Part shown: positions 14,348 through 31,659 of the stretch, one piece after another
Numbering within the stretch: position 1 is the stretch's first letter
Layout of the letters: every line of letters starts with the position of its first letter
Assembly: GCF_900155605.1 (NCBI RefSeq)
Contig: NZ_LT707420.1
Coordinates: forward strand, 1,813,625-1,877,624
Reading direction: 5' to 3'
Length of the DNA stretch: 64,000 bases
DNA from: Actinomyces marseillensis
GTDB lineage: Bacteria > Actinomycetota > Actinomycetes > Actinomycetales > Actinomycetaceae
Made by a program: the position numbers and the translations under genes
The notes under the pieces: generated by a model
The model's input: the letters and a program-made list of their open reading frames with translations, nothing else
Databases searched by the model: none
Told to the model about the DNA's origin: nothing

Positions 14348-17300
14348 GTGTCTGGTTCACAATTTGATTCTGAACAGCTTGCCTCTCTTCCAGAAGCTGC
14401 GTTGCGTGCCCCATGGCATCTTGCATGCATTCGCGGTCCCCACCAAGGCATCGTTGCCCTGCCAGGAAATACACCTCCTCAATTCCCAGCCGAGTGCGAA
14501 ACTCTCAGCGATTCCTCACGCGGCCAAAGGATACGGCTCATACCTCGCGATGAATCGAGCCAGATTTCAGTGAAAACACGGCGATTAGGAATCTGGAGAC
14601 GCGCCTGCCCCACCCACACCTATCGCGTCGGTCCAGCGCTGAAAGTTAGAGTGAAATTTCCACGCTCGAGAGACTTCTACGCGTATCGCGCTCGCCCGAG
14701 CCTCCTCTCTTTCCCTCGTGCTGCGCAGCGAAGAGGCTTCGTTCTTCCGGCGGGGTCTTTCATCGGGTTTCTTCCGATCGCCGTGTTCATGGGACTGCGT
14801 ATAAGCGCGATGGGAGCGGGAAACGGGAGTTTTCTCATTCTTGCTGCGCTTCCTCTGGCCGTTATTCTGTTCTCCTTTGGGCTTCGGCATTTTCACCAAG
14901 GCTCTCAAGTGAAACGCCTCGACGCCGCAGCCGTGGCTTTAGTCCTTCGCGTATCCGCGGCCAGATCTTCTCGACCATTCGCTCTTTATCCCTCTTTAGT
15001 TGGACGTGGAAAACCCTGGCTTCTTGAGCCTTCAGATGCCCCCGAGGCCACTCCTTCTCAATCCGCAACAGGCAGGCTACATCCGTTTACAGAAGAGCCC
15101 TTATCGCACCACTATTACGCAGCACTCGGCTCGCAATCCCAGCTCATGGCCTTTTGGTTTGCGTCGCAAATCGCAACGCAAGCAGGAGGTGCTCATCTTC
15201 ACTTCGCTGGCTCTCCACCCCTCATTCTTGGCACAGCGGGAGCCGACTCGGTGCACATTTTTCTCCACGGCCTCGGAGATGAATGGAAACCACAGGGGCA
15301 AGCGCATGACGCGGAAACTAAGCGCGTCAAGGAAGAAATTCACCTCGCGTGGGCATACAGCTACGCGCAGCTCCCCACCTGGTGCGAAGCCGTAATACCA
15401 GCAGACCAAACACCGGTTTCACTGGCATGGTGGCAGATGATCACACATGCCCGCTCGTGCGCGAGCATTCCCAACGACTGCGATTTCACAGAGCTCTCCT
15501 GGAATGGAATTGATGCGGATTACTCGCTGAGAACTCCTATTGGTCAGGACTCCGCCGGAGAAGTCAGCATCGATCTGGTGAGTGAAGGGCCACACGCGCT
15601 TATTGCAGGGACAACGGGAAGCGGAAAATCAGAAGCACTTCGCACGTGGCTTCTTGGTTTATGCGCTCGCTACTCACCGGCTCGCCTCCGTCTTGTTTTG
15701 GTTGACTATAAAGGAGGTTCGGCTCTTGCACCCTTAGCCCGCCTCCCTCACACCGAGGCGGTCCTCACTGATCTTGATCCCGGGCACTCCGCTCGCGCGC
15801 TACGTGGTTTAGCTTCTTGTTTGGCTCAGCGGGAGGCTGATTTCGCCCAAGTACAGGTCAAAGATCTCCAGCAGTGGTACGAGCACTATCGACAGGGCAA
15901 AGCGCCGCTTCCTCCTCCCCGGATCCTGATCGTTGTCGATGAGTTTCGTGTACTTGCAGACCTTCATCCCACGACTCTGGAGATATTCTCTCGCCTTGCT
16001 TCCCAAGGTCGTTCCTTGGGACTCCATCTCCTTTATGCAACCCAGCACCCCAGTGGCGCAGTCAATACGACAATGCGTGCCAACACCGAGCTGCGAATCG
16101 CTTTACGAACCATTACCGAGGCCGAATCACTGGACATTATCGGTAGTGGTGCTGCAGCACGTATTCCACGAATTCCCGGACGCGCATTCATTGGATCCGG
16201 CCACGAAGTGCAATTTGCGTACTGCCACGATGTTGAGGACGTCATTGGGGAAATCAGGGATCGCAGCTTCGCGGATGAGTGCGGGAATTTGACGAGGCAG
16301 CGCACTCCCCTGTGGTGCCCCTCGCTTCCCTCACACATTCCCTCTGCTCAGTTGAAGGACATGAATATAGCTGGGTGTGAAGGTGTCGTTCTTGGGCTGC
16401 GAGATGGAATCGATACGGGCACGCATAGTCCACTTGTGTGGAAACACGGAAATATTTTGCTCAGTGGCGTGGGAAGTTCTCGCCTCAAGCTTGGACGCAT
16501 TGCACGTTCATGCGCCTTTGCACTCAGTGATGCGCTTGGATTGCCCGTATATGCAATGTCCTTGGAAGCGGAAAGCGCTGGAACGCAACCAAGCGGACCG
16601 GGAAGCAAGTCTTATCCATTCCTCATCCGAAATGTCCTTGATTGCGGCGTTTTCTGCGAAGCAATCACGGACTACTCCCCTTGCGTTCTATGGATTGAGA
16701 ACATCGACAACGTTCTTCACTCGATGGAAGAGTGCTTCGGAGTTTTACGTGCTCATCAGATGTGGGGGCAATTCACGCGCACTTGCGATGGAACTGAGGT
16801 CATTTTGGTAGCAAGCGAGGGTTCAGGGACTTTTGCCCATCGCTCGCGCTACGGTTCTTTCGAACACAATTGGTACGACATTCCTTCTCGCGACATTGCT
16901 TCCAATTCTGGGCTTATCGGGCAGGCTCAACTAACAAATCAACCAGGGCATCTGTGGAATTCTGTCCAAGAGACAATGATGGCTCTGCCTGTGGAGCACT
17001 CTCGCCCCAAATTAGTGATGGATCTACGTTCATGGGAGACGATGCTGCATCGCAGCCTCGAAATTTCCGGAGCGACTACGATAGGCACACCTCTAAGGCC
17101 AGACTCAAGCATGATGACGAGGAGAGGGCATGACTCTCCATATATTCATAGTTTCCCTAAGACACCGTTGACTGAGAAAACGGCGCTTGCATCTCGCACA
17201 AAAATCGACGTTGACATGCATATTTCGGGCATTGAAATTCGTTATGGATCGCTCTTAAAACGATTTCTATTTTCAGAGCGCAAATGCATATTAATCGGAG

Positions 17301-17566
17301 AGGAGAATTCTATTCTCGCAAGCGTTCTGAGGGAAATAAATCCAAGTTGCTCTATTGATTACTTTGAGCAAACATGCTGGTTAAAGGCACTGAGCACGCC
17401 TCACGATTTATTGTTCTTCCCAAATCCTTCCGGCGATGCACTGCGCTTCATCGCCCAAAGCTGCCAGGATTTTCCCAGTTCTTTATATGCGCATTCTTGG
17501 AATTCTTATTCGGGGGTAATTATTCATCGTGGCGCCACTAGGCGTTTCGTCCTGAGTTTTAAATAG
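14348..17566 (+). CDS. EccC/EssC-like FtsK/SpoIIIE ATPase
   Basis: The protein has 1,072 residues with a GTG start. Residues 1-105 are soluble, with a possible FHA-like segment around 30-40. Two hydrophobic segments follow at about 130-150 and 158-178. The first ATPase module has an intact Walker A (GTTGSGKS, 421-428) and Walker B (ILIVVDEF, 526-533), with a LATQHPSG-like stretch after it (YATQHPSG). Two later modules look degenerate: the P-loop positions read SGVGSSRLKLG and LIGEENSILAS and lack the Lys-Ser/Thr pair. A membrane anchor plus tandem FtsK-type modules is the layout of the type VII secretion motor EccC/EssC, not of the chromosome translocase FtsK, which has four helices and a gamma domain. 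No WXG100 or other secretion gene is adjacent. The codon use of the C-terminal 200 residues looks more A+T-rich than the start. Confidence 0.75.
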   Translation: MSGSQFDSEQLASLPEAALRAPWHLACIRGPHQGIVALPGNTPPQFPAECETLSDSSRGQRIRLIPRDESSQISVKTRRLGIWRRACPTHTYRVGPALKVRVKFPRSRDFYAYRARPSLLSFPRAAQRRGFVLPAGSFIGFLPIAVFMGLRISAMGAGNGSFLILAALPLAVILFSFGLRHFHQGSQVKRLDAAAVALVLRVSAARSSRPFALYPSLVGRGKPWLLEPSDAPEATPSQSATGRLHPFTEEPLSHHYYAALGSQSQLMAFWFASQIATQAGGAHLHFAGSPPLILGTAGADSVHIFLHGLGDEWKPQGQAHDAETKRVKEEIHLAWAYSYAQLPTWCEAVIPADQTPVSLAWWQMITHARSCASIPNDCDFTELSWNGIDADYSLRTPIGQDSAGEVSIDLVSEGPHALIAGTTGSGKSEALRTWLLGLCARYSPARLRLVLVDYKGGSALAPLARLPHTEAVLTDLDPGHSARALRGLASCLAQREADFAQVQVKDLQQWYEHYRQGKAPLPPPRILIVVDEFRVLADLHPTTLEIFSRLASQGRSLGLHLLYATQHPSGAVNTTMRANTELRIALRTITEAESLDIIGSGAAARIPRIPGRAFIGSGHEVQFAYCHDVEDVIGEIRDRSFADECGNLTRQRTPLWCPSLPSHIPSAQLKDMNIAGCEGVVLGLRDGIDTGTHSPLVWKHGNILLSGVGSSRLKLGRIARSCAFALSDALGLPVYAMSLEAESAGTQPSGPGSKSYPFLIRNVLDCGVFCEAITDYSPCVLWIENIDNVLHSMEECFGVLRAHQMWGQFTRTCDGTEVILVASEGSGTFAHRSRYGSFEHNWYDIPSRDIASNSGLIGQAQLTNQPGHLWNSVQETMMALPVEHSRPKLVMDLRSWETMLHRSLEISGATTIGTPLRPDSSMMTRRGHDSPYIHSFPKTPLTEKTALASRTKIDVDMHISGIEIRYGSLLKRFLFSERKCILIGEENSILASVLREINPSCSIDYFEQTCWLKALSTPHDLLFFPNPSGDALRFIAQSCQDFPSSLYAHSWNSYSGVIIHRGATRRFVLSFK

Positions 17567-18059: not shown

Positions 18060-20330
18060 CTACGAGTCGCAGCGTCGCGATACCCGGCGCACGGCCAGCC
18101 CCATTCCAGCTAAGAGGAGACCCATCGCCGCAAGCGAGTTACTGACTACCCCGGTTCGTGCCACACGAGGTTTCTTCGGTTCTTCCCCCTTCACGCTTTG
18201 ATCGCGCGAATTGATATCTCGATGAAAAGCGACTCTTTCATTTCCTTGATAGAAATCTTCAAAGACAACAAGTTGTTTTCCTCGAAGCTGTTCTCCCTGC
18301 GTATGGAAGACAACCTCAGCGCACCCCTTTGAGGAGTCAGCACGAAACTCCGTGCGCGCGCTGACCAGTCCGTGTTCGTCTGACAAGGGCACTCCGCTCT
18401 GACGATCAACAAGGGTTGCGTTGAGGGCGTATTCACGCCCGGCCTCGACGCCTTCGTAGCACACGCTATCGACGATGCTCACTGGGCCGCTGCCCGCAAC
18501 GATCTGGTCTGAATCCGCGCCGTCGCGCGCATGCGTCGAGATCGCAATCGGCCGGCCTTCCTTGCGCGTGTACTGTTCATTCGGGTCATCAACCGGAGAG
18601 CGATACGCCGCTACCCTACTGTCCCCATCAAACTCGGTAGTAAACACGTAGGTTCCCACTCGCTCTGGCTGCACGCGGAAGGCGAGGTCGCCTAGCGAAG
18701 GGAAGTAGCCGTTTCGCGCTGGAATCTCAACGCTTCCGATTTCCTCTGCTCTATCGCGATTCTCTTCTGCGACCTCAAGTCCTTGAGGGAAGAAGAGAAG
18801 ACGGTGGCGCATTCGTGGTGCATCCGCCCCGAAAGGCTCTCGCCCCGCCCAACCTGGATGAGACTGCGGAAAACCGCTCACCCACAGGTCATCGATGAGA
18901 TACGTTCCCCCACGGGTTTCTTTGACCTGAGCTGCAGAGTAGATCTGAACTTTCCATGGAGTAACGCTGGTTTCCGTTGATAAGGCAAGCTGGTCCGACC
19001 AGTCTGAATGGATCAACGGAGCGTACTGACCTTGATGATCCTTTCGCACTTTCCACACCCAAGAAACGAAACCGGGCTTATGCACCGATTCAGGAACATC
19101 GATTGTTACAGTTTGTGTTCCTTCCCCAGCGAAAACCGCTGAAGCATACCCGATAACCGGAGCGTCTTGCGGGATCAAACGTCCATCAACTGGCGACGGC
19201 GGAGGCTCTTCTCCTAAGTCATAGGCGATTCCATCAAAAGTTACGGGAATAGGCCCGTGCTCGTCATGAAGCCAACTTCCGTCCCCATAGTTCGGGTCTG
19301 CAAAAGCAGTGATCGTGTCAGCAAGATGGTGACCGGTAATACTCGATTCTTCGACCTTCGAGCGGAGCATCGGTTGAAAATCCATGAGGACTTTCCACTC
19401 TCCCCCCTTAAGACGCTTTTCTTCCTTGTCACCCTCGGGCCTATTCCCGTACGAGGCCGTGTCTTGCGTTGCGGCGCGAACACCGTAGCGCGTGAGCGTC
19501 GTTCGAACGGGGTTGACGTATGTCCCTTCCCATTTCACGCTTCCGTTTCCTGTTGCTTCCCACTCCAGGCTCACTCCGGTCTCTTTTGTGGTCCCTTCCC
19601 ATTGCGATGTTCCCGTCGATGTGAAGCGCGCAGGCCCAATGAGCATCAATTTCAGTTTGAGGCCCGGGATCCACTCCCCTTTCTCATTCTTCACACCCAG
19701 GTCTTTGAGCAAACCATTGCGAGGCGTGCGTGACTCGACGCTTCCGTTCTCATAGGTCGTCACAGCTGCCTTTTGTGCCTGACGCACGTAGTCTTTTGCC
19801 TTCTCGTAGACCTGAGGGAGTTGCTCGCGAACACGATCGACCAGTGTGTTGACTGAATCCTGAGTGTTCTTCCCCGCTTGATCACCCTCAAAATTTGCGT
19901 GGATGAGGAAGGAAAGTGCTGCACGGTTGTCTGGGTGGCGGTCTCCTTGATAGCGATCAAGGAGCCACGCCATTTGTGCAGTGGAGAGGTCAATTTCGTC
20001 TGGCCCCCAGCGTTTTGATTCTCCGAGGTCGCTGATTGAGGCGGTGTCTTGAGGTTTCGGATTTGCTCGCCACATGTGCGTGCACCAGACGGGGTAGCGA
20101 GTTTCAACGTTGTGAGGCGCCGTGTACGCCCCCAGCCAAAATCCGCCGACTGATTGCGCTCCGACGCCTTTGACGTAGAGACCGTTGCCCTCGAATAGCA
20201 CATGTGCTGGTTGCGGGCTCATTGCGAGTGCACTCACCGTTGTGACCCCCACCATATAGACGAGGAGCCGCGTCATTTTTCCAAGCCCCAACCTTCTTGC
20301 AGCAGGCGTATATCCTTGCCTCCCGATCAT
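18060..20330 (-). CDS. Surface protein with thioester-like and VaFE domains
   Basis: Probable cell-wall protein of 756 residues. A signal segment (about 18-43) is followed by a TQXA/thioester-type domain. The thioester Cys position is present (C83 in YPVWCTHM), but the partner Gln position reads NRAALSFLIH, with R136 in place of Gln. The middle (300-580) is beta-rich and unrecognised. Near 620-700 lies a VaFE-type domain (start IVDSVCYEGVEAG, end LVVFEDFY), the isopeptide-bonded repeat of pilin-like adhesins. The C-terminus has a sorting-signal layout, but the pentapeptide reads VARTG where LPxTG is expected, followed by a hydrophobic helix and RRVSRR. Start 20330 is chosen for AAAGGAAG six bases upstream; the longer GTG at 20345 overlaps that site. 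Confidence 0.75.
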   Translation of the reverse strand: MIGRQGYTPAARRLGLGKMTRLLVYMVGVTTVSALAMSPQPAHVLFEGNGLYVKGVGAQSVGGFWLGAYTAPHNVETRYPVWCTHMWRANPKPQDTASISDLGESKRWGPDEIDLSTAQMAWLLDRYQGDRHPDNRAALSFLIHANFEGDQAGKNTQDSVNTLVDRVREQLPQVYEKAKDYVRQAQKAAVTTYENGSVESRTPRNGLLKDLGVKNEKGEWIPGLKLKLMLIGPARFTSTGTSQWEGTTKETGVSLEWEATGNGSVKWEGTYVNPVRTTLTRYGVRAATQDTASYGNRPEGDKEEKRLKGGEWKVLMDFQPMLRSKVEESSITGHHLADTITAFADPNYGDGSWLHDEHGPIPVTFDGIAYDLGEEPPPSPVDGRLIPQDAPVIGYASAVFAGEGTQTVTIDVPESVHKPGFVSWVWKVRKDHQGQYAPLIHSDWSDQLALSTETSVTPWKVQIYSAAQVKETRGGTYLIDDLWVSGFPQSHPGWAGREPFGADAPRMRHRLLFFPQGLEVAEENRDRAEEIGSVEIPARNGYFPSLGDLAFRVQPERVGTYVFTTEFDGDSRVAAYRSPVDDPNEQYTRKEGRPIAISTHARDGADSDQIVAGSGPVSIVDSVCYEGVEAGREYALNATLVDRQSGVPLSDEHGLVSARTEFRADSSKGCAEVVFHTQGEQLRGKQLVVFEDFYQGNERVAFHRDINSRDQSVKGEEPKKPRVARTGVVSNSLAAMGLLLAGMGLAVRRVSRRCDS

Positions 20331-20529
20331 GGTTCTTCCTTTCACAGTTTCCGGAGAATTCTTCTCCGCTTGAAGCGAGAGTAAGAGCGGGAACGAGAAG
20401 AAGGGTTTGAGGGCGCCTATTCTGTGGATAACTCGCGATTCCCTCGACGCTGTGGATAACTTTTGTGCTCAGACAACAGTCAGTGCTTGGAACGGGAAGT
20501 GCCCTCGAAAGAGGGCAGGACGAACGGGA

Positions 20530-20593: not shown

Positions 20594-22735
20594 TTAGCGA
20601 TGCGACCAGAAACGAATGACTGTTTGAGGCTGGTTGGGATCCTGGAAGGAACGAGCCATCTCGCCTTGGTAGCTGTAGTCATCGAAGAAGCGAGTGGAAG
20701 ATATGGGCAGGTACTGAGGATTATCGGCAAGGGTGAAGTTGTAGACCTTCTTGTTGCCTTCCCACGAGAATTCCATACCATCATCGATCTGGACACCATC
20801 AGCCTTGGGGATCCAGTAACGATGGGTCTTGCCGTCAACCGGATTCACCCGATCTCCGTCCCACCAGTGGAGGCTGTAGTTCGCGTCTTCAGGGATACCG
20901 CGGTCAACCTTGCCATTGACTCGAGCGTAGTTCACTACCAGATGCTGAGGCTCGTAACCATCCCAGTCTCTGCGCGGGTTGTCACCAATGCTCATGCCGC
21001 GAAGCTTCTTCTCTTTGTCAGTGAAGGCGAAGTCCGAACGAATGTCCTCTGCAAAAGGTCGCACGATGATGTTGTCGTAAAGATCAACGCCAGCAATGCG
21101 GCCGAACATCTCCTGGAAGTCAATCGCACCACGGGAGCCGCCATAGTAGTCATCTTGAGTGCCACTACGAACAATCTTGTTACGCTGAATGCTGGCCCTC
21201 TTGTTCAAGGTCAAGTTCCAATCGAAGTTGTGGCCACCAAACACCGTATTGAGACGGATACCTGCGCCTTCAAAATTCCCCGTGATGAGGTTGTTCTCTG
21301 CTTTTTGCCCGGATCCACCAAAGAAACCGATTCCACCTGCGCGCCATCCGAGCTCGATCGTGTTGTGCGTGAACTCAATATTGTCGGTGTGACGAGCATT
21401 CGATACGTATTGAACGGGATCGCCCGGCTTTGACTCTGCGTGGCTTGACCAGGAGGCAAGACCATCATCGCCGTTTCCACGAACATTGGAATTGCGAACG
21501 GCCGAATCCCGGCTGCCCTGCGAATAGTTCAGGCCATCAGCAAAGTTATTGCGAATACGGGAGTGATCGACCAGCATATTTTCGGTGTACTGCATGTCTA
21601 TTTGATTGACATAGTCACCCATCCAGAAGCCACACTCGAAGTGTTCGATCCACAGGTTCACAAACTGTGAATTCTTGGTGACGCCTTGGAATCCCTTATA
21701 GTTTGCCCCTTCGTCGTAACGGGACTTGAGATTAGTCGACATGTAGAAGTCACGGAACTGCAGGTCATGGCTGGTATGTTCAAGAACAATTCCACCACTG
21801 GCCTTGTTCGGGTTACGGAAGAAGAGATTCGAGTACCAGATACCTGCACCTTGGATCATCAGCTGGTGGTTATCATCCGGAGAATGCCGAACCACAAGCT
21901 GGCTGTCAAACTCGAAGGTTCCACGCGGAATGTACAGGGTCTTCTTCTCATCCGATGCGCGCTTAAGGGCTGCGAGGAAAGCTTCGGAGTCATCCTTTCC
22001 GTCATTGGCCCATGCGTGAACCGGACGAGTCTGGAATTCTCCCGGTTTCACTTCTTCCGTAACCGTCAAGTCATCATCGGTAATGCTCACCGAATTATCG
22101 GGGCGCGGAATCTCAGGAAGGGCCTGTTCAAGTTCAATAAAGTCAATGCCATAGGTATAACCTTCACTCCCCGTTCGAACGACACTGACCGTGTCTCCCG
22201 GGTTTACTTGGCGATTGAGCAGAGTATGGACCTCATCAAATTGGAAGCGCGCATGTATTGGCCCTTGGTCTGCCAACTTGTCTTTCTTTTCGTCAAAGAC
22301 CTTGCTCTTTTGAACATACTGATACGCAGTTTCTGACGAGAGATTAAAAGTAGCGGCCTTTTCTCCGTTAATACGAATATCAACGCTTCCAGCTCTGTGG
22401 TCAGGAAGAGTGAATCGAAGATCAATTGCATTCCCGGGAACTTCAGCAGTGAAGCTCACGGAAGATCCCTTGCCTTCGAGTTCAACGTAGGACTGTTCTC
22501 CGGCTTCAATCGCCGTCGAGTCGAGCATTTTGTCAACAGTCAGGCTCTCGTCGAGCGAGACGACGTGTGCGCGGTCAAGTCGGCCCCGCTCGGCCTCGTA
22601 ACGCGTGTAGGGAAAAGAGGCACCATAGGTCGTGTCGCCATCGGCAGCGATGGCGGTATGGGTGGTGCTCAGGGAGGGAAGGAGCACGATTGCCGCAGCG
22701 GCGCCGACGCTTCCCACGAGGTATCTGCGTTTCAT
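20594..22735 (-). CDS. Secreted beta-helix glycosidase, probable GH87 alpha-1,3-glucanase (mutanase/mycodextranase)
   Basis: Exported protein of 713 residues. The signal peptide MKRRYLVGSVGAAAAIVLLP (1-20, cleavage near AIA-AD at 31) has a twin-arginine-like start. Residues 35-205 resemble a CBM35/CBM6 carbohydrate-binding domain (YEAERG, then a C-terminal GIDFIELE). From 240 a right-handed parallel beta-helix begins (NDGKDDSEAF, TLYIPRGTF, then Asn-rich turns). Acidic residues D400 (FADGLN), D423 and D424 (GDDGLASW) have the 23/24-residue spacing of the catalytic Asp triad I recall for GH87 (D1045, D1068, D1069 of a Paenibacillus enzyme). Such enzymes cut alpha-1,3-glucan in streptococcal plaque or fungal walls. 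No wall anchor is seen, so it is probably released. Other beta-helix families (pectate-lyase-like) are the alternative. Confidence 0.7.
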   Translation of the reverse strand: MKRRYLVGSVGAAAAIVLLPSLSTTHTAIAADGDTTYGASFPYTRYEAERGRLDRAHVVSLDESLTVDKMLDSTAIEAGEQSYVELEGKGSSVSFTAEVPGNAIDLRFTLPDHRAGSVDIRINGEKAATFNLSSETAYQYVQKSKVFDEKKDKLADQGPIHARFQFDEVHTLLNRQVNPGDTVSVVRTGSEGYTYGIDFIELEQALPEIPRPDNSVSITDDDLTVTEEVKPGEFQTRPVHAWANDGKDDSEAFLAALKRASDEKKTLYIPRGTFEFDSQLVVRHSPDDNHQLMIQGAGIWYSNLFFRNPNKASGGIVLEHTSHDLQFRDFYMSTNLKSRYDEGANYKGFQGVTKNSQFVNLWIEHFECGFWMGDYVNQIDMQYTENMLVDHSRIRNNFADGLNYSQGSRDSAVRNSNVRGNGDDGLASWSSHAESKPGDPVQYVSNARHTDNIEFTHNTIELGWRAGGIGFFGGSGQKAENNLITGNFEGAGIRLNTVFGGHNFDWNLTLNKRASIQRNKIVRSGTQDDYYGGSRGAIDFQEMFGRIAGVDLYDNIIVRPFAEDIRSDFAFTDKEKKLRGMSIGDNPRRDWDGYEPQHLVVNYARVNGKVDRGIPEDANYSLHWWDGDRVNPVDGKTHRYWIPKADGVQIDDGMEFSWEGNKKVYNFTLADNPQYLPISSTRFFDDYSYQGEMARSFQDPNQPQTVIRFWSHR

Positions 22736-22880
22736 AGCGGAGGATCTTCCTTGTCAGTACGTGAGATAGGCCAGACCCACAATGTTTTCGCTGATCGGAA
22801 GGGAGTGGCCTATTGATCCTCAACACTAAAAACTCAAGGTGTGAACATAAATAAAAGATTCTTTAACGAAGCTATTCATC

Positions 22881-22984
22881 AGCTACAAGATTTCTGCGAC
22901 TATTCTTGTAGCTTTCTTATACATTTTGATGCGCATCGCGAGCGGTTTTATTTCGCACACACATGCGCATCAAAGCGCAGGATT
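22881..22984. repeat. Two adjacent inverted repeats upstream of the glucanase gene
   Basis: Repeat 1 has 10-base arms agctacaaga (22881-22890) and tcttgtagct (22904-22913) with a 13-base gap. Repeat 2 has 12-base arms tttgatgcgcat (22925-22936) and atgcgcatcaaa (22973-22984) with a 36-base gap. They lie 146-250 bases upstream of the glucanase start in A+T-rich DNA. They could be operators or hairpins; the 36-base gap makes a simple hairpin terminator unlikely for the second. Confidence 0.6.
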
Positions 22985-23120
22985 CCAAGGCTCATAAGCC
23001 TTATAAAATGAGAGCTTCACACGCTCTTGCTATATGTTCTGTTGGATTTTATTACCACTATTGCGCATTGATCGAAAATTTTCTGAAAGAAGGCGCAATG
23101 GATTTCTTTTCCCGAGGCCG

Positions 23121-23151
23121 TGGGGGCGCCGCTGGGGGCGTATTGGGGGCG
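23121..23151 (+). repeat. Triple direct repeat TGGGGGCG
   Basis: Exact copies of TGGGGGCG begin at 23121, 23133 and 23144, with 12- and 11-base periods, about one helical turn apart. The near-helical phasing is suggestive of a protein-binding array, but the octamer is simple G-rich sequence and could be chance. Confidence 0.45.
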
Positions 23152-23230
23152 AAAACACTCACATTCACTCTTTCTAGCCACTCTTACACTCAAGCGATAT
23201 TCCCACAAAAGCCTTGATAACAAAGGAAAA

Positions 23231-23257
23231 CCTCGGGATTCCATAGGAATCCCGAGG
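23231..23257 (+). terminator. Terminator-like hairpin
   Basis: A perfect 12-base-pair stem (cctcgggattcc / ggaatcccgagg) has a 3-base loop. No T-run follows on the plus strand; on the minus strand TTTTCC follows, so it would act on leftward transcription out of the island. It marks the left side of the accessory segment. Confidence 0.55.
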
Positions 23258-23426
23258 CATAAGTGGAGCTCAGGGGGCACATGTCGAACTCGTCCAGACT
23301 CGCGATCACCTTTTGTTGGTGGCCATGGCAGCGTGAGGAGCGCTCATTTCCGCTCATACACGAGCAGAACCAGAAAGCCCCGTGTAAATGTGGTTAAATC
23401 ACTGGATTCGCGATAAAATAAAAGTG

Positions 23427-23578
23427 CCCCGCATGGAGCCCACGCGGGGAGGCGCAGCCGCCGATCTCGCCTGAGCGAGATGAGGACCGGACGTGAGGGA
23501 CCTTATCGGGGAGATGTACCCCGGAGACATCAGGACGGGTCTCACCTGATGCAAGTGGTGGGCAACGATGCCACCACT
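23427..23578 (+). promoter_or_regulatory. Structured leader with three hairpins before the HTH gene
   Basis: Three stems lie in a row: ccccgc/gcgggg (23427-23449), atctcgc/gcgagat with a CTGA tetraloop (23464-23481), and agtggtgg/ccaccact (23554-23578). The last ends 14 bases before the ATG of the excisionase-like gene. This could be an RNA leader controlling that gene, or a replication-origin-type structure of the old element. I recognise no riboswitch family. Confidence 0.45.
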
Positions 23579-23592
23579 CTGTGAGGTTCAAA

Positions 23593-23802
23593 ATGGCTGC
23601 GATTGCCAAAACTGCCCTACCTCAGCTGTATTCGCTGAGAACACTGTCTGAAGCCGGATACGGCTCAATTGCTACGCTCCGCCGCGCTATTCGCGAGGGA
23701 CGTCTAGATGCCGTCCGCGTCGGAGGCCGTCTGAAAGTCACTGCCGAGGCTCTTGCCCGATACATCGGCGAGCCCATCTCCACCGGAGGTGAGGCACGAT
23801 GA
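23593..23802 (+). CDS. Excisionase/MerR-like small HTH protein
   Basis: The protein has 69 residues. The central segment LRTLSEAGYGSIATLRRAIREGRLDAVRVGGRLKVT has the layout of the helix-turn-helix/wing DNA-binding domain of excisionases (HTH_17 family): recognition helix, then the I-x-x-G-x-L-x-A-x-x-x-G-G wing. The ATG at 23593 follows TGTGAGG and is preferred over GTG 23581. Its stop overlaps the start of the primase fragment (ATGA), so the two are translationally coupled. Such proteins usually sit beside replication or recombination genes in actinobacterial plasmids and integrative elements. Confidence 0.7.
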   Translation: MAAIAKTALPQLYSLRTLSEAGYGSIATLRRAIREGRLDAVRVGGRLKVTAEALARYIGEPISTGGEAR

Positions 23803-24605
23803 GCACTCAAAGAAATCGCCCCGGAACCGCTGAGGGCACCGAGGCAACTGTTGTTCGTGAAAGTCAGTCTACTGCAAACTCTCCCGTGAGGCACTACCCG
23901 AACGTTCCGCCGATCAACCAGCTCATCTCCGACGAGGTGGAGCTCTTCTTCAGGGCCGATCAGACGAGGTACACGCCCGAGCAGGTGGAGTCGAAGCTGC
24001 TTCACGCCATCAACACGCGGATCCTCACCAAGAACGCCCAGGGCGGCCTCAAGGGGGCGCTGGCCTATCGCTCGCTCAAGGTCCTCCCACCGTTCGTCAT
24101 CGCCGCGTGCGTCCTGGAGCGGGACCACTCTCATCTGGGTCTGATCGGTGAATCGCGCGAAACGGCGAGGCTCTATACGTACAGCGAGCAAGGCCCGGAC
24201 GAGGGGTTGTACGTCCCCGCCGAGTTCCTCATTCGACAGGCGGCAGTCGCGTACAACGTCAGCGCGACTAGCCGTGATCTCGACGAGGTGCTGCGTCGTC
24301 TGGAGGACTCGGTGCCGATGCTGGAGCCCTCGGAGGACGGTGATGCCGTGGCTCTGGCAAACGGGATCTTTGATCTGCGGACGAAGGAACTCGCGCAGCT
24401 AAGCGAGCGCCGGGGTGCGCCTACAGGCGACTCTCGGCCTCAGCAAGCTCGACGTAGCGCGCGAGCTCCTCGTCCAGATCGTCCACATCATCCGTCCCGT
24501 CGGACGGAGCCTCAGCCTCTGCGTCTGATTCCTCCTGCCCGTAGCGTTCCAACAGGAGGCGCTCTCGGTAGAGGTTGTCCGCTGTCACCCCGATGGTACG
24601 GATGA
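23799..24605 (+). pseudogene. Truncated phage/plasmid primase (D5/P4-type N-terminal part)
   Basis: The first ~205 residues look like the N-terminal part of a D5/P4-type primase-helicase: YPNVPPINQL, RSLKVLPPFVIAACVLERD, and the landmark NGIFDLRTKEL, which normally precedes the helicase domain. After about 24413 the frame runs antisense through the 3' end of the EcsC gene (Arg/Pro-rich, compositionally wrong) to a stop at 24605, so the helicase part is missing. The breakpoint coincides with the EcsC stop codon at 24421. It probably no longer works. It is coupled by ATGA to the HTH gene. Confidence 0.65.
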
Positions 24606-25509
24606 GGGACACGTTGAGGGCCATGCCGACGATGATGCCGATAATCGGCAGGATCTGCGCCATCTTCATGCCGACGAGACGCGTTCCCAGGGCCGCGAAC
24701 AAGGAGTTCACGGATGCGGTCAGCGCGTTGGTCCCGACGCTCTCCATCGATCCGCGTTTGGTGAGCTTGCGCACCACCTTGTTAAACACACGCATCGAGG
24801 TCGCCTTCTCGACGGCATGGTCATCAGCCTTGCTTCGCGGGGCGATCGCCTGGGATAAAACCATCGTGGAGAACAGCTTTTCCGCTGGATCCTCCGTGTC
24901 ATACCCGTAGTACGCAGCCGTGTGCGACACGAGGCGCGCAGAGGAGGCCAAGAACGTCGCGATATCGAGGCCGATTGCCCCCATGATCACGCCGATACCG
25001 GGTGCCGAAGCGATGCCCAGGCCAAGGAGAGCCGCAACCGCCCCTCCCGTCGCGAATATGCTGCTCACCGCTCCTTCCGTCGCGGTAACGACGGCATATC
25101 CCACCTTCAGGTGGGGCCTGACCAATTGGATCTCTGCCAGGTTCAGGTTTCGGATGTCTTCGAGACACTCCACGTCGTTGCCTGCCCTGCGATACGCCTT
25201 CACGATTCGTTCGCGTCGAACCGATGATTCGGCGGCTGATGTCGCCTTCTCGACGAGCCCCAGGACAGCCGATGAGATCCAGCCGGCAACCGCAGCGACG
25301 CCGGGCATCTTGCCCGCGAGGCCAACCACTTTTTTCAAAGGGGTGAGCACGTACGAACGGATGCGCTGAGTGATGACGCGAGGACTGCGAGGGTTGACCT
25401 GAGCGGCCTTCCATTCCTGGATCGCATCCCACTGCGCACGATCGTCGTCGGTCATGCGCTGCCGAATATCGTCGCGTGCGTTGTTCTCTTCCACCGGCTG
25501 ATCTGTCAT
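24421..25509 (-). CDS. EcsC family protein (full-length copy)
   Basis: This 362-residue protein belongs to the EcsC family, named after a Bacillus gene of the ecs ABC-transporter operon whose role is still unclear. It has an acidic N-terminus (1-40), then helices rich in Gly/Ala (150-185, IASAPGIGVIMGAIGLDIATFL), the phrase YYGYDTEDPAEKLFSTMVL near 205-225, a second hydrophobic stretch (LPIIGIIVGMALNVSLIRTIG) and an acidic tail. It may associate with membranes. G+C content looks higher than in flanking genes. A related 5'-truncated copy follows upstream on the same strand. Confidence 0.8.
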   Translation of the reverse strand: MTDQPVEENNARDDIRQRMTDDDRAQWDAIQEWKAAQVNPRSPRVITQRIRSYVLTPLKKVVGLAGKMPGVAAVAGWISSAVLGLVEKATSAAESSVRRERIVKAYRRAGNDVECLEDIRNLNLAEIQLVRPHLKVGYAVVTATEGAVSSIFATGGAVAALLGLGIASAPGIGVIMGAIGLDIATFLASSARLVSHTAAYYGYDTEDPAEKLFSTMVLSQAIAPRSKADDHAVEKATSMRVFNKVVRKLTKRGSMESVGTNALTASVNSLFAALGTRLVGMKMAQILPIIGIIVGMALNVSLIRTIGVTADNLYRERLLLERYGQEESDAEAEAPSDGTDDVDDLDEELARYVELAEAESRL

Positions 25510-25574
25510 ACCCCAAGCCTACCCGGCCAAGATAAAGCGGCCCACACCACAGAGCGAGCGGGATTGCCGCTCTC

Positions 25575-26249
25575 CTACGGGCGACTCTCGGCCTCCGCGA
25601 TCTCCACGTAGCGCGCGATGTCTGCGCTCAGCTCCTGGCTGTCGGCAGACCTCGCCAGGTCCGTCGAGGCGCCATCGGAGGTCTCCACGCGACCGTAGCG
25701 TTCGGCGAGGAAGCGCTCGCGGTACAGGTGATCGGCGGTCTCGCCGATGGTGCGCATGAGGGCGGCATTGAGCCCGGCGCTCACGACGACTCCCGCGACA
25801 GGGACGATCTGCGCGAGCTTGCGAGACGCCAGACGTACGCCCATTGCGCTGAAGAGGGAGTTCATCGCGCTCACGACCACGTTGCCGCCGAGGCCGTCGA
25901 GCGAACCGCGCCGGGCAAGGCCACGCATCACCTTGTTGAAGGCCAGCATCGTCGTCTGCTTTTCGACGACGAAATCGTGGCCGCTGCCCGTCGGGTCGAT
26001 CGCCTGCGAGAGCACCATCGTGGAGAAGAGTCGCTCCGTGGGGTCCTCCGAGTCGTAGCCGTAGTAAGCGGCCGTGTGTGCAACGAGGCGCGTCGCAGCG
26101 GCCAGGAAGGTCGTGATATCGACGGCGATAGCCGAGGCCGTGACCCCCACTCCCGGGGCAGAGGCCACCATTGACACACCCGAGACCCGCGACCAGCTCT
26201 TCGAGTACTTCGTGGATAAGGTATTCATCGGGCGCGAGCAGATCATCAT
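25575..26249 (-). pseudogene. 5'-truncated second EcsC family copy
   Basis: From M at 26171 (MVASAPGVGV) to the end this is a paralogue of the neighbouring EcsC protein: YYGYDSEDPTERLFSTMVLSQAI, LAQIVPVAGVVVSAGLNAALMRTIG, and an identical end (AEAESRP against AEAESRL). The 150-residue N-terminal part is missing. Upstream of 26171 the frame is antisense to a recombinase relic, so the join is an abrupt breakpoint. A 198-residue product from 26171 could still be made, but it would lack half the family domain. The two copies probably arose by duplication or came in together. Confidence 0.7.
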
Positions 26250-26505
26250 CGCGTCCTATTTCCATGACAGCGCAGCGCCCATCGAGTTCGAGGAGCTAGA
26301 AGAAGCGCTCACCAGCGGACACAGAGCGGGGGAGGTGCGAACCTACGCTCGAAAGCGAGAGTTCGACACTTCCCCCTCAGGTGGAGATGGGGGGAATCGA
26401 ACCCCCGTCCAACAGCCGACCCCGAGGTCTTCTCCGAGCGCAGTCTGCGAGTTATTTCTCAGCCCCTGGCATCATGCAGACCTGCTACCAGATAGGCTCA
26501 GTTGA
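26173..26505 (+). pseudogene. C-terminal relic of a serine recombinase overlapping ssrA
   Basis: A plus-strand frame reads PETRDQLFEYFVDKVFIGRE, then QIIIASYFHDSAAPI, then an Arg-rich stretch, and runs into the complement of ssrA as GDGGNRTPVQQ. The LFEYFVDKVFI...I-I pattern is the usual end of large serine recombinases (resolvase/integrase). Frames of this kind whose tail is written in the tmRNA 3' end are typical for integrases that use that gene as target. The N-terminal catalytic domain is absent: the frame upstream of 26173 is antisense to EcsC. Confidence 0.6.
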
Positions 26506-26753
26506 TTGAGTGTCGGAGCCGTCCTACCAACACGAACGGCACCCAGTGGCTTCCTAGACGACGCCAGACACCGGACCGGAAGCAGCTTCCGGGCTGACGG
26601 ACTAAAGGTTCACGCGGCAATCAGGCGGCGAGAACGTAGTCGGTGCGATTCTGTTCGGCACCTATTTGTTTGCACACATCGTTAACGAGTAGAGCATGCC
26701 TCCTCGGCTCGCTTCCCCTCGATCGACGACCGCTGTCGAAACCGATCATCCCC
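26382..26753 (-). ncRNA. ssrA: Transfer-messenger RNA (tmRNA)
   Basis: On the minus strand the RNA starts GGGGATGATCGGTTTCGACA and ends with GGTTCGATTCCCCCCATCTCC plus A. The acceptor stem GGGGATG/CATCTCC closes the tRNA-like domain. The tag frame before TGA reads AEQNRTDYVLAA, starting at GCC after ATAGGT, similar to mycobacterial ADSHQRDYALAA. tmRNA rescues stalled ribosomes with SmpB, whose gene lies 5 kb upstream on the same strand. The length of about 372 bases is normal. Its 3' end is a classic integration site, and here it abuts a recombinase relic. Confidence 0.95.
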
Positions 26754-26863
26754 TATTGAGTTCTTCACTCACCGGCGCCCAGCCACCACAGCAGCAGCAC
26801 AAACACCGGACTTGAAATCATACGTCCCCGCAGCAGACCTGGCAAGAGAAACCCAAGGACGCC

Positions 26864-29068
26864 CTACATGAGCTTTGTGGACTCCAACTTCTCAACCAAG
26901 AGTCGGTTGTTCTTGATGAGGAAGGGACGAAGCCCCAATCCCAATACTGCCGCAAACAGGGCAAAGGCACCCAGCAACAGCATTGCATCAAGGTACTCAC
27001 TACCCGAATACCCCGCGATCGAAGCACGCAGCGCCGTGATCCCATGCGTTGCCGGAAGATACGGTGAAATCGACCGGAAGAAACTCGGCAGAATATCCAG
27101 AGGGAACGCGCCACCGGAAGCCGAAATCTGGAGCACCAAAAACAGCACGCCCAGTGCCTTTCCCGCGTTCCCGAATGTCGCAATGAAGGTATAGAGCAGG
27201 AATGAGAACACGAAAGCCATGAACCATCCCGCACACATAAACTCCCACGGGTGAGCGTGCTGAACTTTCAGGAAGAACAGCTCACCCAGGCACAAAATCG
27301 TCGCCTGAATAAGCGCGATCAGCCCAAAAATGAGGTAGCGTCCAAGGAAACCTTCCCACAGCTTCACCTCGCGGCCCTTGAAATAGAGCGCAGTCGGATG
27401 TGTCTCTTCAAGCCCGTCGGCAACGTTCTCGGCAGTGACATCACTGCGCAGAGCAACAATCATCAGCACCGAGCCTACCCACAGTGCCAAAGCAGTGTAC
27501 AAAGGCGCCATCTGCGAGCCAAAGTTCTCCACCGGATACACCGGGATCGTCTCAATCCCCACAGGTGCAGCCAGCGCAATTGCGAGCGCTTGGGGATCCG
27601 AACCGATGATCGTTCGAACCTGGGCAAGATTCCCACCGTTGAGTGCGTCAGTGAGCTTCGTGTGGATTGTCGCCAGTTTTTCCGAGGCCTCGCGAAGGTT
27701 GGTCCCGACATTGCTGAAGGTGGATTGAAGTTTCGTCAGTCCCTCACGCACTCCCGTTGAGCCGTCACCGACTTGAGAGCTCGCTGCGGAAAGCTGATTG
27801 CGAAGCGAAGCCATCGATGAGGTCGCAGAATTCATCGTCTGAGAAAGCTGTTCCAGCTGAGGGCGCAGCGTCGATTCGACATCAGACTTGAGGGTCCCCA
27901 CGGCCGTTTTCGCCTCTTCGATGAGGCTCTTCACGTCTTGATGATTCGCGGCTGCCGCTGCCCCGTTCTTTTCCAGATCATCCGCCGCCGCATTGATCGC
28001 ACTTTGAAGCGCATTCAGGCGATCAGCAGAAGCTTGCAGACGATTCAGCACGTCTTGAGAAATGGGAGAACCCGGGAGCTGTGAAAGAGTCTCTTTCACG
28101 TGAAGATACTGGGTCGCCTGATTCCCCACGGCCTCGGCCTGAGAACGCAAGGTTTGCACGGCCGAAGTCACGGTGCTCCCACCTCGGGAATACACATCAT
28201 CAATCGACGAAGCCAGGGCGTCCAAGGAACTAGCCGACGCACTCACCGCCGAGGAAAGAGCAGAAGCGGCCTGCGAGGCGCCAGAAGAAATTTGCGTAAT
28301 CGATGAGGAAGCAGTGTTTCCTGCGTTAGAGAGCGGGTCCTTCGCCTGCGCGGCATGAGTGAGCATCGTCTGCGTGGAATCCACAAGCTGAATGGACGAG
28401 CCAATAAGCCCCGCATAGGCATCGGCGCTCGCCGCCGCATTCGCGAGACGTGTCGAGGTCGTCTCCAGACGCGAATTGAGCGCCTGAATCCCGCGCACGT
28501 TACTTGGGTCCGATAGAGAGTCAGAAAGCGATGAGGCAGTATCGACAGCGATCTCGGCCAAAGTCTGAGCAAAAGCCTGGTTGATCTGCGCGGAAACATG
28601 CTCCGCTCCCTGCCCGGCAATCTTCGGGCTCAAACCATTCTTCTTCTCGTTGATGTAGTAGGTCAGCGGGGTGCTGTGCGCATCCGAAGAGAAGAAGGTC
28701 ATCATCTCGCGCGAGAAATCCTGAGGAATCACGACCGCCGCGTAGTACTCACCGGAGCGAGTCTTCTCAACTGCCTGCGCTTCACTATCAACAACCCAGT
28801 CGAAATCCTCATTCGCGCGCAACGCGGCAACAACCTGATCACCAATATTGATCTTCAAGGGCACCAGATCCGACTTGTACCCCTCGTCGCTATTGGCAAT
28901 CGCAATCCGAAGATTCTTCGTATTCGCGAAAGGATCCCACGAGGCCGCAATGTTGAACCACGCGAAAATCGACGGGAGAACAACCAGCCCCAAGACAACG
29001 ACCATGGAGATGATCGAGCGGTGAGCGCGATGGAGATCAGCCCGGAAAATTCGCCACACGGCTTTCAC
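26864..29068 (-). CDS. YhgE/Pip family membrane protein (second gene of the pair)
   Basis: The protein has 734 residues. TM1 (about 18-38) is followed by the hallmark NIAASWDPFANTKNLRIAIAN, a large extracellular domain rich in Ser/Ala helices (200-460, coiled-coil-like), and five or six C-terminal membrane segments (ABC-2-like). The family includes the phage infection protein Pip of Lactococcus and the EsaA-like subunits of type VII secretion, but most members are uncharacterised. Its ATG overlaps the stop of the upstream paralogue (ATGA), so the two are co-translated and may form a heteromer. Confidence 0.88.
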   Translation of the reverse strand: MKAVWRIFRADLHRAHRSIISMVVVLGLVVLPSIFAWFNIAASWDPFANTKNLRIAIANSDEGYKSDLVPLKINIGDQVVAALRANEDFDWVVDSEAQAVEKTRSGEYYAAVVIPQDFSREMMTFFSSDAHSTPLTYYINEKKNGLSPKIAGQGAEHVSAQINQAFAQTLAEIAVDTASSLSDSLSDPSNVRGIQALNSRLETTSTRLANAAASADAYAGLIGSSIQLVDSTQTMLTHAAQAKDPLSNAGNTASSSITQISSGASQAASALSSAVSASASSLDALASSIDDVYSRGGSTVTSAVQTLRSQAEAVGNQATQYLHVKETLSQLPGSPISQDVLNRLQASADRLNALQSAINAAADDLEKNGAAAAANHQDVKSLIEEAKTAVGTLKSDVESTLRPQLEQLSQTMNSATSSMASLRNQLSAASSQVGDGSTGVREGLTKLQSTFSNVGTNLREASEKLATIHTKLTDALNGGNLAQVRTIIGSDPQALAIALAAPVGIETIPVYPVENFGSQMAPLYTALALWVGSVLMIVALRSDVTAENVADGLEETHPTALYFKGREVKLWEGFLGRYLIFGLIALIQATILCLGELFFLKVQHAHPWEFMCAGWFMAFVFSFLLYTFIATFGNAGKALGVLFLVLQISASGGAFPLDILPSFFRSISPYLPATHGITALRASIAGYSGSEYLDAMLLLGAFALFAAVLGLGLRPFLIKNNRLLVEKLESTKLM

Positions 29069-31659
29069 TTCTCGCTCCCTTCTTCCGTAATTTCCTCATT
29101 GCCGAGGCGGTGCTTCCCCAGTTGCGCAGCGGAAGCCTTCACTCCATGGAGCCTGCGACGCAGCAAGGAGCGCACATCAGAATCATCCATCGAGGTGAGC
29201 AACTGCTGACGAGCCAAAGACTCACGAATGTATTCCAGAGCAATGAGGAAAGTAATAATCACAAGAATCCAGACGATCCACAGCCCCAGAAGAAGGGGGA
29301 CCTCCGCAACACTCGCAACAGAAAGAACTGCAAGGATCGCAGGAATCACGATTCCCAGAATTAGAGCCCCGCGGCGCATCTTCGGATAACGCCGCTCGAA
29401 ATTACGCGCACGACGGGTTACCGAACGCGAATACCCATCGTGATCGGCAAGGACTGCGACGATCTGGGATAGACGGTAACGCGAGGAAGGAAGGTGCGTG
29501 GCCTCGGCAAGGAACAATCCTGAACGAGACAGATCTCGACTGACCATCGCATTGAGGTTGACCAAGAAGGGACGAACCAACAGGCCCAAAGCAAAAGCTA
29601 TAAGAACGTGAATTCCCAAAACTCCAAGCGATCTCAGGTAGGCGTTACCGTAGAAGCCACCGACGGTCTCACGCATCGCATTGATCCCATAGGTGAAGGG
29701 GAAAAGCGGATGGAGGAAACGGAAGAAGGAAGGCATCATCTCGATGGGATACAAACCCGCCGCTCCAGGGATCTGAAGAATCACGATAATGACGCACAGG
29801 CCCTTACCGATATGTTGGAAACAGGTCGCCAGCATGTAGATCACGGAAAGGAACACCAAAGAAACAAGGACAGCAGTACCTACAAAGGCAAACTTGGAGA
29901 CCGTTTGGACACCGATAATCAGATCGCCGATGGAAACAACCAGAGCTTGCCCAATCGCGAATAGAGCCAAGAGCATCCAACGAGACATGTACTTTTGCGC
30001 CGAGGTCATGGAACCGACGCCCTCTTCATCGACCTCAAGCTTGAGAATGATCACGAGCGCGAAAGCACCGATCCAAAGGGAAAGGTTTGTGAAGAGCGGT
30101 GCCATCGCTGAACCATATGTGGCAACCGGGAAAACAGTCTGGGTTGTAATCGATGTCGGAGCAGCCATGAATTCTGCGATTTTCTCAGGATTGAGATTCA
30201 TCGAGCCCGCCAGTGACTGAATCGCGTTGGAGGAAGAAATCAGCTGGATATCTCCCTTGGCGCTATCCAGATCAGACTTGAGAGAGGCAATATTCGCCGT
30301 AGACTGCGCAAGCGTTGTTTTCGTTGAATCAAGCAAGGTATCAAGCTGATCAAGAAGGCCCGAAATCTGCTCGCGTTGCCCTTGAAGAACGCCGATCGCG
30401 GAGCGAAGATCAGCTGAGGCAGAGGACATCTGATCCAAGGCGCTGGAAATGACCGGGAGCTGATTCGTCACGCCTGAGCGCGCCTGCGTGGCCGCATCGC
30501 TCAAGGACTGGCTGGCGGAATTCAGTGAGTTGAGGGCCTGAGCGATCGACGTTGAGGTCGAAGAGAGGTTCCCATTGAGTGCCGATAGATTCGACAATGT
30601 CTGCCCGACTTGTGCATTTTGCGTGCTCAAGTCCTGTAGTGCCTGCGAGGCCGTGGGCAGATTCGCTATCCCCAGGCTTTGCAAGTCGCGAAGGATATCA
30701 GCGTTGGCTTGGTTAATAGATTGCCCCTCGGTGAGCACGCCTCCAATTGTCGTCGTTGCACCTTGCACGCCTCCGTTGAGAGTTCCACCTGCACTCGATG
30801 CTTTAGCCACGGCTGCGGAGGCATGCGTCGAAAGCCCGTCCAGAGAAGTCGACATATTCACGGTGAACTGCGAGAGACTGGAGCGGGTATCGAAGACAAG
30901 TTGATCGGCTTGGGACAAGGCCTCGTTGAGATCGCTTAGCGCTGAGTCGGCGCTCGTCATTGAGCTTCGCGCACCACTGACCTTTTCCTTCGCCGAATCG
31001 AGCTTCTCCCCCATTGCGTTAAGGGATTCCTCAGCCTGCCCCAATTGCTCGCTTGCGGTCTTCACTTTCTCGCTGATGTCCGAGCGCCCGTTTTGGAGGA
31101 CTTCAGAAATAGATTTGCCCGTGGAGGTGATCTTCTCTGAGAGAGTCTGCGCAACAGTTGAGACAAAAGCCGAGTTGATCTGTTGATCTAAAGAAGATGC
31201 TCCTGCTCCTGTGATCTTCGGGGCAACAGCATTGTTCTTCTCATTGACGTAGTACTGGACATCGGGCTTGGTATAGGTGCCGTCAACAATGCCCGTGAGA
31301 CGCGTGGAGAAATCGGAAGGAATGATGAAAGCGGCATAGGATTCCCCGCGTTCAACTTCTTTCTTTGCCTGCTCTGCTGAGACGAAATGCCATCCGAGTT
31401 GATCGTTCTCGCGTAGCTTCGACTCCAGCATTGTGCCCACGTTGACAAAACCGATCGCGTCTTTCGTCGCACCCTGATCTTCATTGGCAACTGCGACGCG
31501 GATCTTCCCTGTATTCGAATAGGGATCCCAAAAACCGACGATGTTAAACCAGGCATACAGTGCCGGTACGAAGAGGAGACCGATGATGACAATCCAAGCG
31601 GCGGGCACGGTCACCATACGCCGAATATCCCGCTTAAGCGATCGCACAACGGGCCTCAT
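29065..31659 (-). CDS. YhgE/Pip family membrane protein (first gene of the pair)
   Basis: The 864-residue protein has the same architecture as its neighbour: TM1 (20-40) followed by NIVGFWDPYSNTGKIRVAVAN, then a long Ser/Gln-rich extracellular helical region (180-490) and a C-terminal membrane bundle. It adds about 110 C-terminal residues with two further membrane segments (LILGIVIPAILAVLSV and LGLWIVWILVIITFLIAL) and a charged tail. The role is unknown; transport or a structural role in the envelope is possible. The EsaA relationship is notable because an EccC-like ATPase lies at 14-17 kb, but the distance argues against one locus. Confidence 0.87.
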   Translation of the reverse strand: MRPVVRSLKRDIRRMVTVPAAWIVIIGLLFVPALYAWFNIVGFWDPYSNTGKIRVAVANEDQGATKDAIGFVNVGTMLESKLRENDQLGWHFVSAEQAKKEVERGESYAAFIIPSDFSTRLTGIVDGTYTKPDVQYYVNEKNNAVAPKITGAGASSLDQQINSAFVSTVAQTLSEKITSTGKSISEVLQNGRSDISEKVKTASEQLGQAEESLNAMGEKLDSAKEKVSGARSSMTSADSALSDLNEALSQADQLVFDTRSSLSQFTVNMSTSLDGLSTHASAAVAKASSAGGTLNGGVQGATTTIGGVLTEGQSINQANADILRDLQSLGIANLPTASQALQDLSTQNAQVGQTLSNLSALNGNLSSTSTSIAQALNSLNSASQSLSDAATQARSGVTNQLPVISSALDQMSSASADLRSAIGVLQGQREQISGLLDQLDTLLDSTKTTLAQSTANIASLKSDLDSAKGDIQLISSSNAIQSLAGSMNLNPEKIAEFMAAPTSITTQTVFPVATYGSAMAPLFTNLSLWIGAFALVIILKLEVDEEGVGSMTSAQKYMSRWMLLALFAIGQALVVSIGDLIIGVQTVSKFAFVGTAVLVSLVFLSVIYMLATCFQHIGKGLCVIIVILQIPGAAGLYPIEMMPSFFRFLHPLFPFTYGINAMRETVGGFYGNAYLRSLGVLGIHVLIAFALGLLVRPFLVNLNAMVSRDLSRSGLFLAEATHLPSSRYRLSQIVAVLADHDGYSRSVTRRARNFERRYPKMRRGALILGIVIPAILAVLSVASVAEVPLLLGLWIVWILVIITFLIALEYIRESLARQQLLTSMDDSDVRSLLRRRLHGVKASAAQLGKHRLGNEEITEEGSEK

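Follow-up and report, generated by a model that had tools for sequence, protein, structure and literature searches.

The question raised by this locus is whether a long open reading frame of Actinomyces marseillensis encodes an enzyme that cuts the alpha-1,3-glucan of dental plaque, and what such an enzyme would do for its host. In what follows, the window is the whole stretch of 64,000 nucleotides that was analysed. The minus strand is the coding strand of the frame (20594..22735), which begins with ATG and specifies 713 amino acids, while four stops interrupt the interval when it is read on the plus strand. The gene is single in the genome (approximately 2.0 Mb in 2 contigs), with one PF22816 match genome-wide, and its G+C content of 52.3%, as against 55.6% across the window, decides nothing on its origin. 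The gene and the main parts of its product are as follows.

20594..22735, minus strand: predicted GH87 alpha-1,3-glucanase (mutanase) gene, 713 aa, from Pfam, phmmer and the structural match of the model
22646..22735, minus strand: putative signal peptide, residues 1-30 (MKRRYLVGSVGAAAAIVLLPSLSTTHTAIA), judged by eye, by comparison of N-termini and from the low pLDDT of residues 1-35
22124..22615, minus strand: CatAgl_D1 beta-sandwich, residues 41-204, Pfam PF22815 (6.6e-26)
20960..22102, minus strand: right-handed beta-helix (CatAgl_D2), approximately residues 212-592, with PF22816 over residues 259-503 and the 5zru match over model residues 33-591

Pfam recognises, above its cut-offs, both domains that make up the catalytic unit of alpha-1,3-glucanases: PF22815 CatAgl_D1 as listed and PF22816 CatAgl_D2 with an E-value of 5.9e-18. 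NCBIfam gives no family above cut-off, and just a generic beta-helix model at 18 bits versus the 141.5 bits of its threshold. A phmmer search of PDB sequences returns seven rows, six of which are GH87 alpha-1,3-glucanases; the best is Agl-KA (5zru) at 6e-100, followed by the Agl-FH1 set (about 1e-21) and Agl-ST (9e-21), and the seventh row, an antibody chain at E 0.37, was taken as chance. An AlphaFold2 model of the protein, made from 35 aligned sequences (pLDDT 78.2, pTM 0.76), superposes on 5zru with a Z score of 44.2 (502 residues, rmsd 2.0 Å, 41% identity), and the seven highest structural matches are all GH87 (Z 36-44 over 462-502 residues). Agl-KA, from Bacillus circulans KA-304, has the same D1 and beta-helix unit and the same triad; Agl-FH1 (6k0m and mutants) and Agl-ST (7c7d) likewise have the same fold and triad, at just 24-26% identity in the structural alignment.

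The protein might instead belong to another family of beta-helix carbohydrate enzymes, of the polygalacturonase, PL6, alginate epimerase or phage tailspike type. Folds of these types do occur lower in the structural lists, where the remaining matches listed are beta-helix proteins with Z scores of 32.5 or less (about 27-32.5) over 285-320 residues, but GH87 entries stand above them in both score and length, and are the sole cover of domain D1 among the 50 structural matches listed. There is no Pfam match of the GH28 or pectate-lyase type either, CatAgl_D1, CatAgl_D2 and the generic Beta_helix model being the only ones up to E 1, and we consider such an assignment extremely improbable. The preliminary description had proposed GH87 membership and had named top hits in another beta-helix family as the finding that would speak against it; GH87 leads both the sequence and the structure lists, and the assignment stands. 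That description had also placed a CBM35/6-like domain ahead of the catalytic part. A beta-sandwich does precede the helix, but as the integral GH87 domain D1 and no accessory CBM: a separate CBM35/CBM6 module is rejected because residues 41-204 match CatAgl_D1, and no CBM family is found among the Pfam matches of the protein up to E 1. CBM35 and CBM36 chains do appear in the Foldseek list, with alignments of approximately 165 columns.

The catalytic residues proposed for the protein are three aspartates, encoded as follows.

21536..21538, minus strand: codon of D400, one of two general-base candidates (D1045 of Agl-FH1), placed by alignment; invariant in 35/35
21464..21469, minus strand: codons of D423 (proposed general acid, D1068) and D424 (the other base candidate, D1069), placed by alignment; invariant in 35/35

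D400, D423 and D424 are separated by 23 and 1 positions and do not vary among the 35 aligned relatives. Identical spacing is reported for D1045/D1068/D1069 of Agl-FH1 and D346/D369/D370 of Agl-EK14, and for Agl-FH1 the proposed acid is D1068 and the proposed base is either D1045 or D1069, as given in the available part of PMC10696023. In the phmmer alignment, D400 and the DD pair face aspartates of 6k0m, whose title carries no mutation, and D424 faces the alanine of 6k0s, the D1069A mutant. The three positions named earlier as the GH87 triad are therefore correct, and homology to the solved structures suggests that the three side chains would lie in one cleft.

The protein has a signal-peptide-like N-terminus, from which we infer that it is exported. 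The signal peptide is probably of the Sec type, with cleavage after AIA (both by eye). It starts MKRRYLVG, so that the twin-arginine-like start noted at first is present, but its conservation is not: RR occurs in 2 of the 12 N-termini compared, HR in 4 and RG in 6. The RR form is limited to A. marseillensis and its near twin, the other ten proteins starting MKHRKIVG or (M)KRGPFIA. Tat export as a conserved feature is rejected on these counts, and a Tat route confined to the A. marseillensis strain is conceivable.

Taken together, we consider it highly probable that the gene product is a secreted member of the known GH87 family and that it breaks down the insoluble alpha-1,3-glucan in dental plaque, a substrate and a biological role that are both predicted. 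Cariogenic plaque has mutan as its insoluble scaffold, and GH87 enzymes use an inverting mechanism. In the mechanism that we propose, the beta-helix groove would bind alpha-1,3-glucan, D423 would protonate the glycosidic oxygen, D400 or D424 would activate water (roles as proposed for Agl-FH1), and nigero-oligosaccharides would be released. The substrate is probably the insoluble glucan of neighbouring streptococci, because a search of the genome for GH70 glucan-makers gives no more than one partial match of 63 positions. This match of the GH70 model scores above cut-off at 28.6 bits, covers 63 of 831 positions and is situated in a 506-aa open frame; it is taken as a probable GH13 cross-match, which suggests that the host itself is probably not a producer of the glucan. 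Attack on the glucan would loosen the matrix and perhaps also provide food, and a GH66 enzyme and an ABC importer, both encoded elsewhere in the genome, may act alongside GH87. In line with an oral role, metagenome studies name GH87 as a marker of oral sites (PMC3374616 and PMC8702856, in the parts available), and an oral GH87 of Prevotella melaninogenica, PmGH87, is described as degrading S. mutans biofilm glucan (PMC13421300, in part). The latter, which we compare by its description in the same source, is a predicted lipoprotein in a predicted Bacteroidetes PUL.

Mycodextranases also belong to GH87 and are known from actinomycetes (PMC10696023 and PMC13421300, in part). An enzyme of that type would cut the alternating alpha-1,3/1,4-glucan (nigeran) of fungal walls, so that the target would be fungi, which also live in the mouth, and not plaque; linear alpha-1,3-glucan is not cut by mycodextranases (both points from the available text of PMC13421300). 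We regard this as quite unlikely for the present protein, since the solved enzymes closest to it are alpha-1,3-glucanases, with Agl-KA far ahead of the rest, and since in the tree described below, which holds no known mycodextranases, it joins Bacillota-type GH87 and not the two other GH87 of the order. An alpha-1,3-glucanase remains the preferred assignment.

Two sets of genes, one far from the GH87 gene and one beside it, bear on what the cell would gain from such an enzyme.

L148 5522-17167 (C2:504521-516166): LacI regulator, GH31, solute-binding protein, two permeases (ABC importer), GH13 and GH66
18060..20345, minus strand: VaFE / T-Q ester surface protein (pilin-like), downstream neighbour of GH87

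No sugar genes were recognised beside GH87. The alpha-glucan locus shares a contig with GH87 at a distance of 1.3 Mb, or of about 0.7 Mb should the contig be circular. The closest solved relative of its GH13 protein is an oligo-1,6-glucosidase, and that of its GH31 protein is an alpha-xylosidase. The GH66 protein has a signal-peptide-like start, a CBM35 and a ricin-type lectin domain, and is nearer to cycloisomaltooligosaccharide glucanotransferase than to dextranases, so the label "dextranase" is not assured. GH65, the nigerose phosphorylase family, was not found in the A. marseillensis genome and no dedicated alpha-1,3-glucosidase was identified there; with GH31 nearest to alpha-xylosidase, feeding on the products is only a suggestion. 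A Cas1 open reading frame is located near the locus (L148 1182-2093).

The enzyme might therefore serve mainly to free the cell or to clear the matrix of competitors (dispersal or antagonism) rather than to feed it, which we consider a real possibility that falls somewhat short of an even chance. It would be consistent with the lack of a recognised linked importer, of GH65 and of any evident nigerose enzyme in the genome, and with the position of GH87 next to the pilin-like VaFE protein in its clade. On the other side, a LacI-type regulator, an importer and alpha-glucan enzymes do share a locus elsewhere in the genome, and GH66 occurs in 9 of the 10 genomes of the genus that have GH87 versus 2 of the 25 others (Fisher p 7e-6), a count confounded by descent. 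Across the 35 genomes of the genus, GH66 is present in 11 and GH31 is above cut-off in 19. A LigA tree of 32 of these genomes (G010, which has GH87, G002 and G029 were left out) provides three independent pairs on supported branches, with GH66 concordant in two or three and opposite in none (sign test p 0.25-0.5). Because descent may explain it, the co-occurrence of GH87 and GH66 is not independent evidence; if the GH87 enzyme is active, its owners, most of which also have GH66, might attack both linkages of plaque glucan.

GH87 is patchy in the genus, being present in 10 of 35 genomes, and with a profile built from the genus proteins it is found in the same number of the 213 genomes of the family, in one genus of 36. 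A search of 98 genomes of relatives gives 12, namely these 10 and two from other families of the same order, whose GH87 is distant. The gene is duplicated in tandem in G024 and G026. A scan of genome contigs yields 179 confirmed relatives, the best 80 of which comprise eight genus loci, one Streptococcus locus (L022) and 71 others, mostly of Paenibacillus and Cohnella. A quick tree was built from 568 columns of 86 GH87 proteins, with L015-L021 and L023 omitted as copies of included genomes. In it, the 12 genus proteins form one group (support 99), which joins the Streptococcus protein with 93% SH-aLRT on a long branch; this join may be an artefact. The genus proteins and L022 are placed together with Bacillota-type (Paenibacillus-type) enzymes, apart from the two order-level actinobacterial GH87, a placement that is provisional because of the long branches. 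The Streptococcus protein, from Streptococcus sp. 263_SSPC, is a full-length homologue, but differs in having 37% identity in the best segment and other gene neighbours. S. salivarius is also said to carry GH87 (PMC13004514, in the part available). Plasmid records contain ten distant matches (24-31% identity), six of them from Streptomyces. A phage origin of GH87 was considered and rejected, as none of the 159 pattern matches in a scan of viral contigs was confirmed as a GH87 relative, and the C-terminal part has no match in phage records.

The genus proteins and L022 are set apart from Paenibacillus-type GH87 by the lack of a long N-terminal region and by the presence of a C-terminal extension.

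20597..20953, minus strand: C-terminal extension, residues 595-713 (119 residues), common to the Streptococcus homologue and absent from the Paenibacillus-type proteins compared

Among the 71 other loci (L024-L094, within the best 80 of 179 relatives), 63 have at least 550 open codons ahead of the match, counts that are upper limits for the N-terminal region because they run from the previous stop, and nearly all end with the beta-helix; L057 is cut by the contig and L091 differs. VYN, LP, Y-x-Y and R-x-W positions of the extension are conserved across the genus proteins and L022, and its profile finds only the genus GH87 loci and L022 (8.6e-24) among the loci examined. The presence of the extension in both is a better argument than the tree for a link between the Streptococcus and genus proteins. 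The extension is predicted to fold alone (model pLDDT 87.1). It has no PDB sequence match, and a Foldseek search of the model gives no match at E ≤0.001 and 226 at E ≤10; VIA gives a best Z of 4.1 and no confident fold match, and such weak matches are no proof of a new fold. Pfam matches to Ntox30 and DUF2275 (2 of 12 members each) and to the DEX1 beta-sandwich (1 of 12), with a best E of 0.016, were taken as noise. Possible roles for the extension are those of a binding module, a helix cap or a wall-retention part.

The surroundings of the gene suggest how it may have travelled. In the window, in Actinomyces sp. S6-Spd3 (G018), and in G024 and G026, GH87 and the VaFE gene are located between LigA and YhgE. 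For L018-L021 and L023, eleven queries from the window neighbourhood (GH87 aside) gave no match of at least 60 residues within 10 kb; at L023, the GH87 neighbours are presumably ksgA, ispE, ABC-F, TetR and glmU, named by eye. The following features bear on exchange.

20598..26859: tract near-identical to Actinomyces sp. S6-Spd3 (L114), 2 mismatches
23261..26380: island between GH87 and tmRNA, present in the window, S6-Spd3 and G024, absent in G026
23593-23802: excisionase-like open reading frame in the island, named by eye
23799-24605: truncated primase-like open reading frame in the island, named by eye; no Pfam match
26379-26753, minus strand: tmRNA, with the island abutting its 3' end

From GH87 to tmRNA the window and S6-Spd3 differ at two positions in approximately 6,260 bases, while the flanking genes differ by 5-12%. 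DNA identity is 99.86% for GH87 and 100% for the features onward to tmRNA, compared with 93.1% for LigA, 87.6% for the EccC-like gene, 90.9% for VaFE and 95.0% for the first YhgE gene. Divergence sets in sharply at both ends. On the GH87 side it starts at 20597, beside the stop codon of that gene, and on the other side at 26860, by the 3' end of the first YhgE open reading frame. A near-identical tract between diverged flanks points to recent exchange, and we read it as a recombination tract between two different species (LigA protein 97% identical). Next to LigA, the FtsK/EccC-like ATPase gene (14348-17566, plus strand; 85% protein identity) is more diverged from S6-Spd3 than LigA itself. Beyond the tract, two tandem YhgE/Pip membrane proteins are encoded at 26864-31659 (minus strand), with a weak EsaA-like N-terminal match under the cut-off.

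The island also contains an EcsC open reading frame and a second one that is 55-56% identical to part of it. In G024, 23261-26849 is 99.2% identical although LigA DNA is just 73% identical. In G026 the island open reading frames are absent and near-identity is back from 26381, at the tmRNA 3' end; as this genome has GH87 without the island, GH87 is not part of the island. We entertain, with less than even confidence and as a rather doubtful proposal, a mouth GH87 lineage common to Schaalia-type actinomycetes and streptococci (two phyla), which is compact in having no long N-terminal region like that of its soil relatives, has a new C-terminal domain and is still mobile as a unit from GH87 to tmRNA. 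If this were true, opening of the plaque matrix would be a mobile trait of plaque residents.

The closest named GH87 proteins, within the best 80 of 179 relatives, are those of Actinomyces sp. S6-Spd3, ph3 and HPA0247, A. bouchesdurhonensis and Schaalia sp. ORNL0103, the S6-Spd3 protein differing at two residues. S6-Spd3 reportedly turns up in a stool study, and an oropharyngeal study names it as one of its features (PMC9561819, in part), so that this relative does not settle the habitat. Schaalia odontolytica ORNL0103 is described as an isolate from human saliva that was obtained together with an associated saccharibacterium (PMC8567789, in part), and the oral actinomycete host that was first suggested is borne out through such relatives, on which the oral assignment of A. 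marseillensis rests.

As an enzyme, the protein is unremarkable for the known family to which it belongs, and its setting is a fitting one; the novelty lies in the compact oral lineage, in the shared extension at the C-terminus and in the sharply bounded exchange tract. This branch of GH87 in mouth actinomycetes appears to be uncharacterised, and the available parts of two open-access papers on mutanase and GH87 (PMC13004514, PMC8702856) describe no mutanase of Actinomyces or Schaalia. If active, it would mean that oral actinomycetes such as S. odontolytica ORNL0103 own a matrix-cutting enzyme, and the protein is a compact natural candidate for biofilm removal. Three records retrieved in this work, Trueperella pyogenes 331_TPYO (L015), Xylanimonas cellulosilytica 352_XCEL (L018) and Sanguibacter keddieii 250_SKED (L020), seem to be misnamed: they belong to the genus of A. 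marseillensis, and their GH87 positions match those of G024, G022 and G012, respectively.
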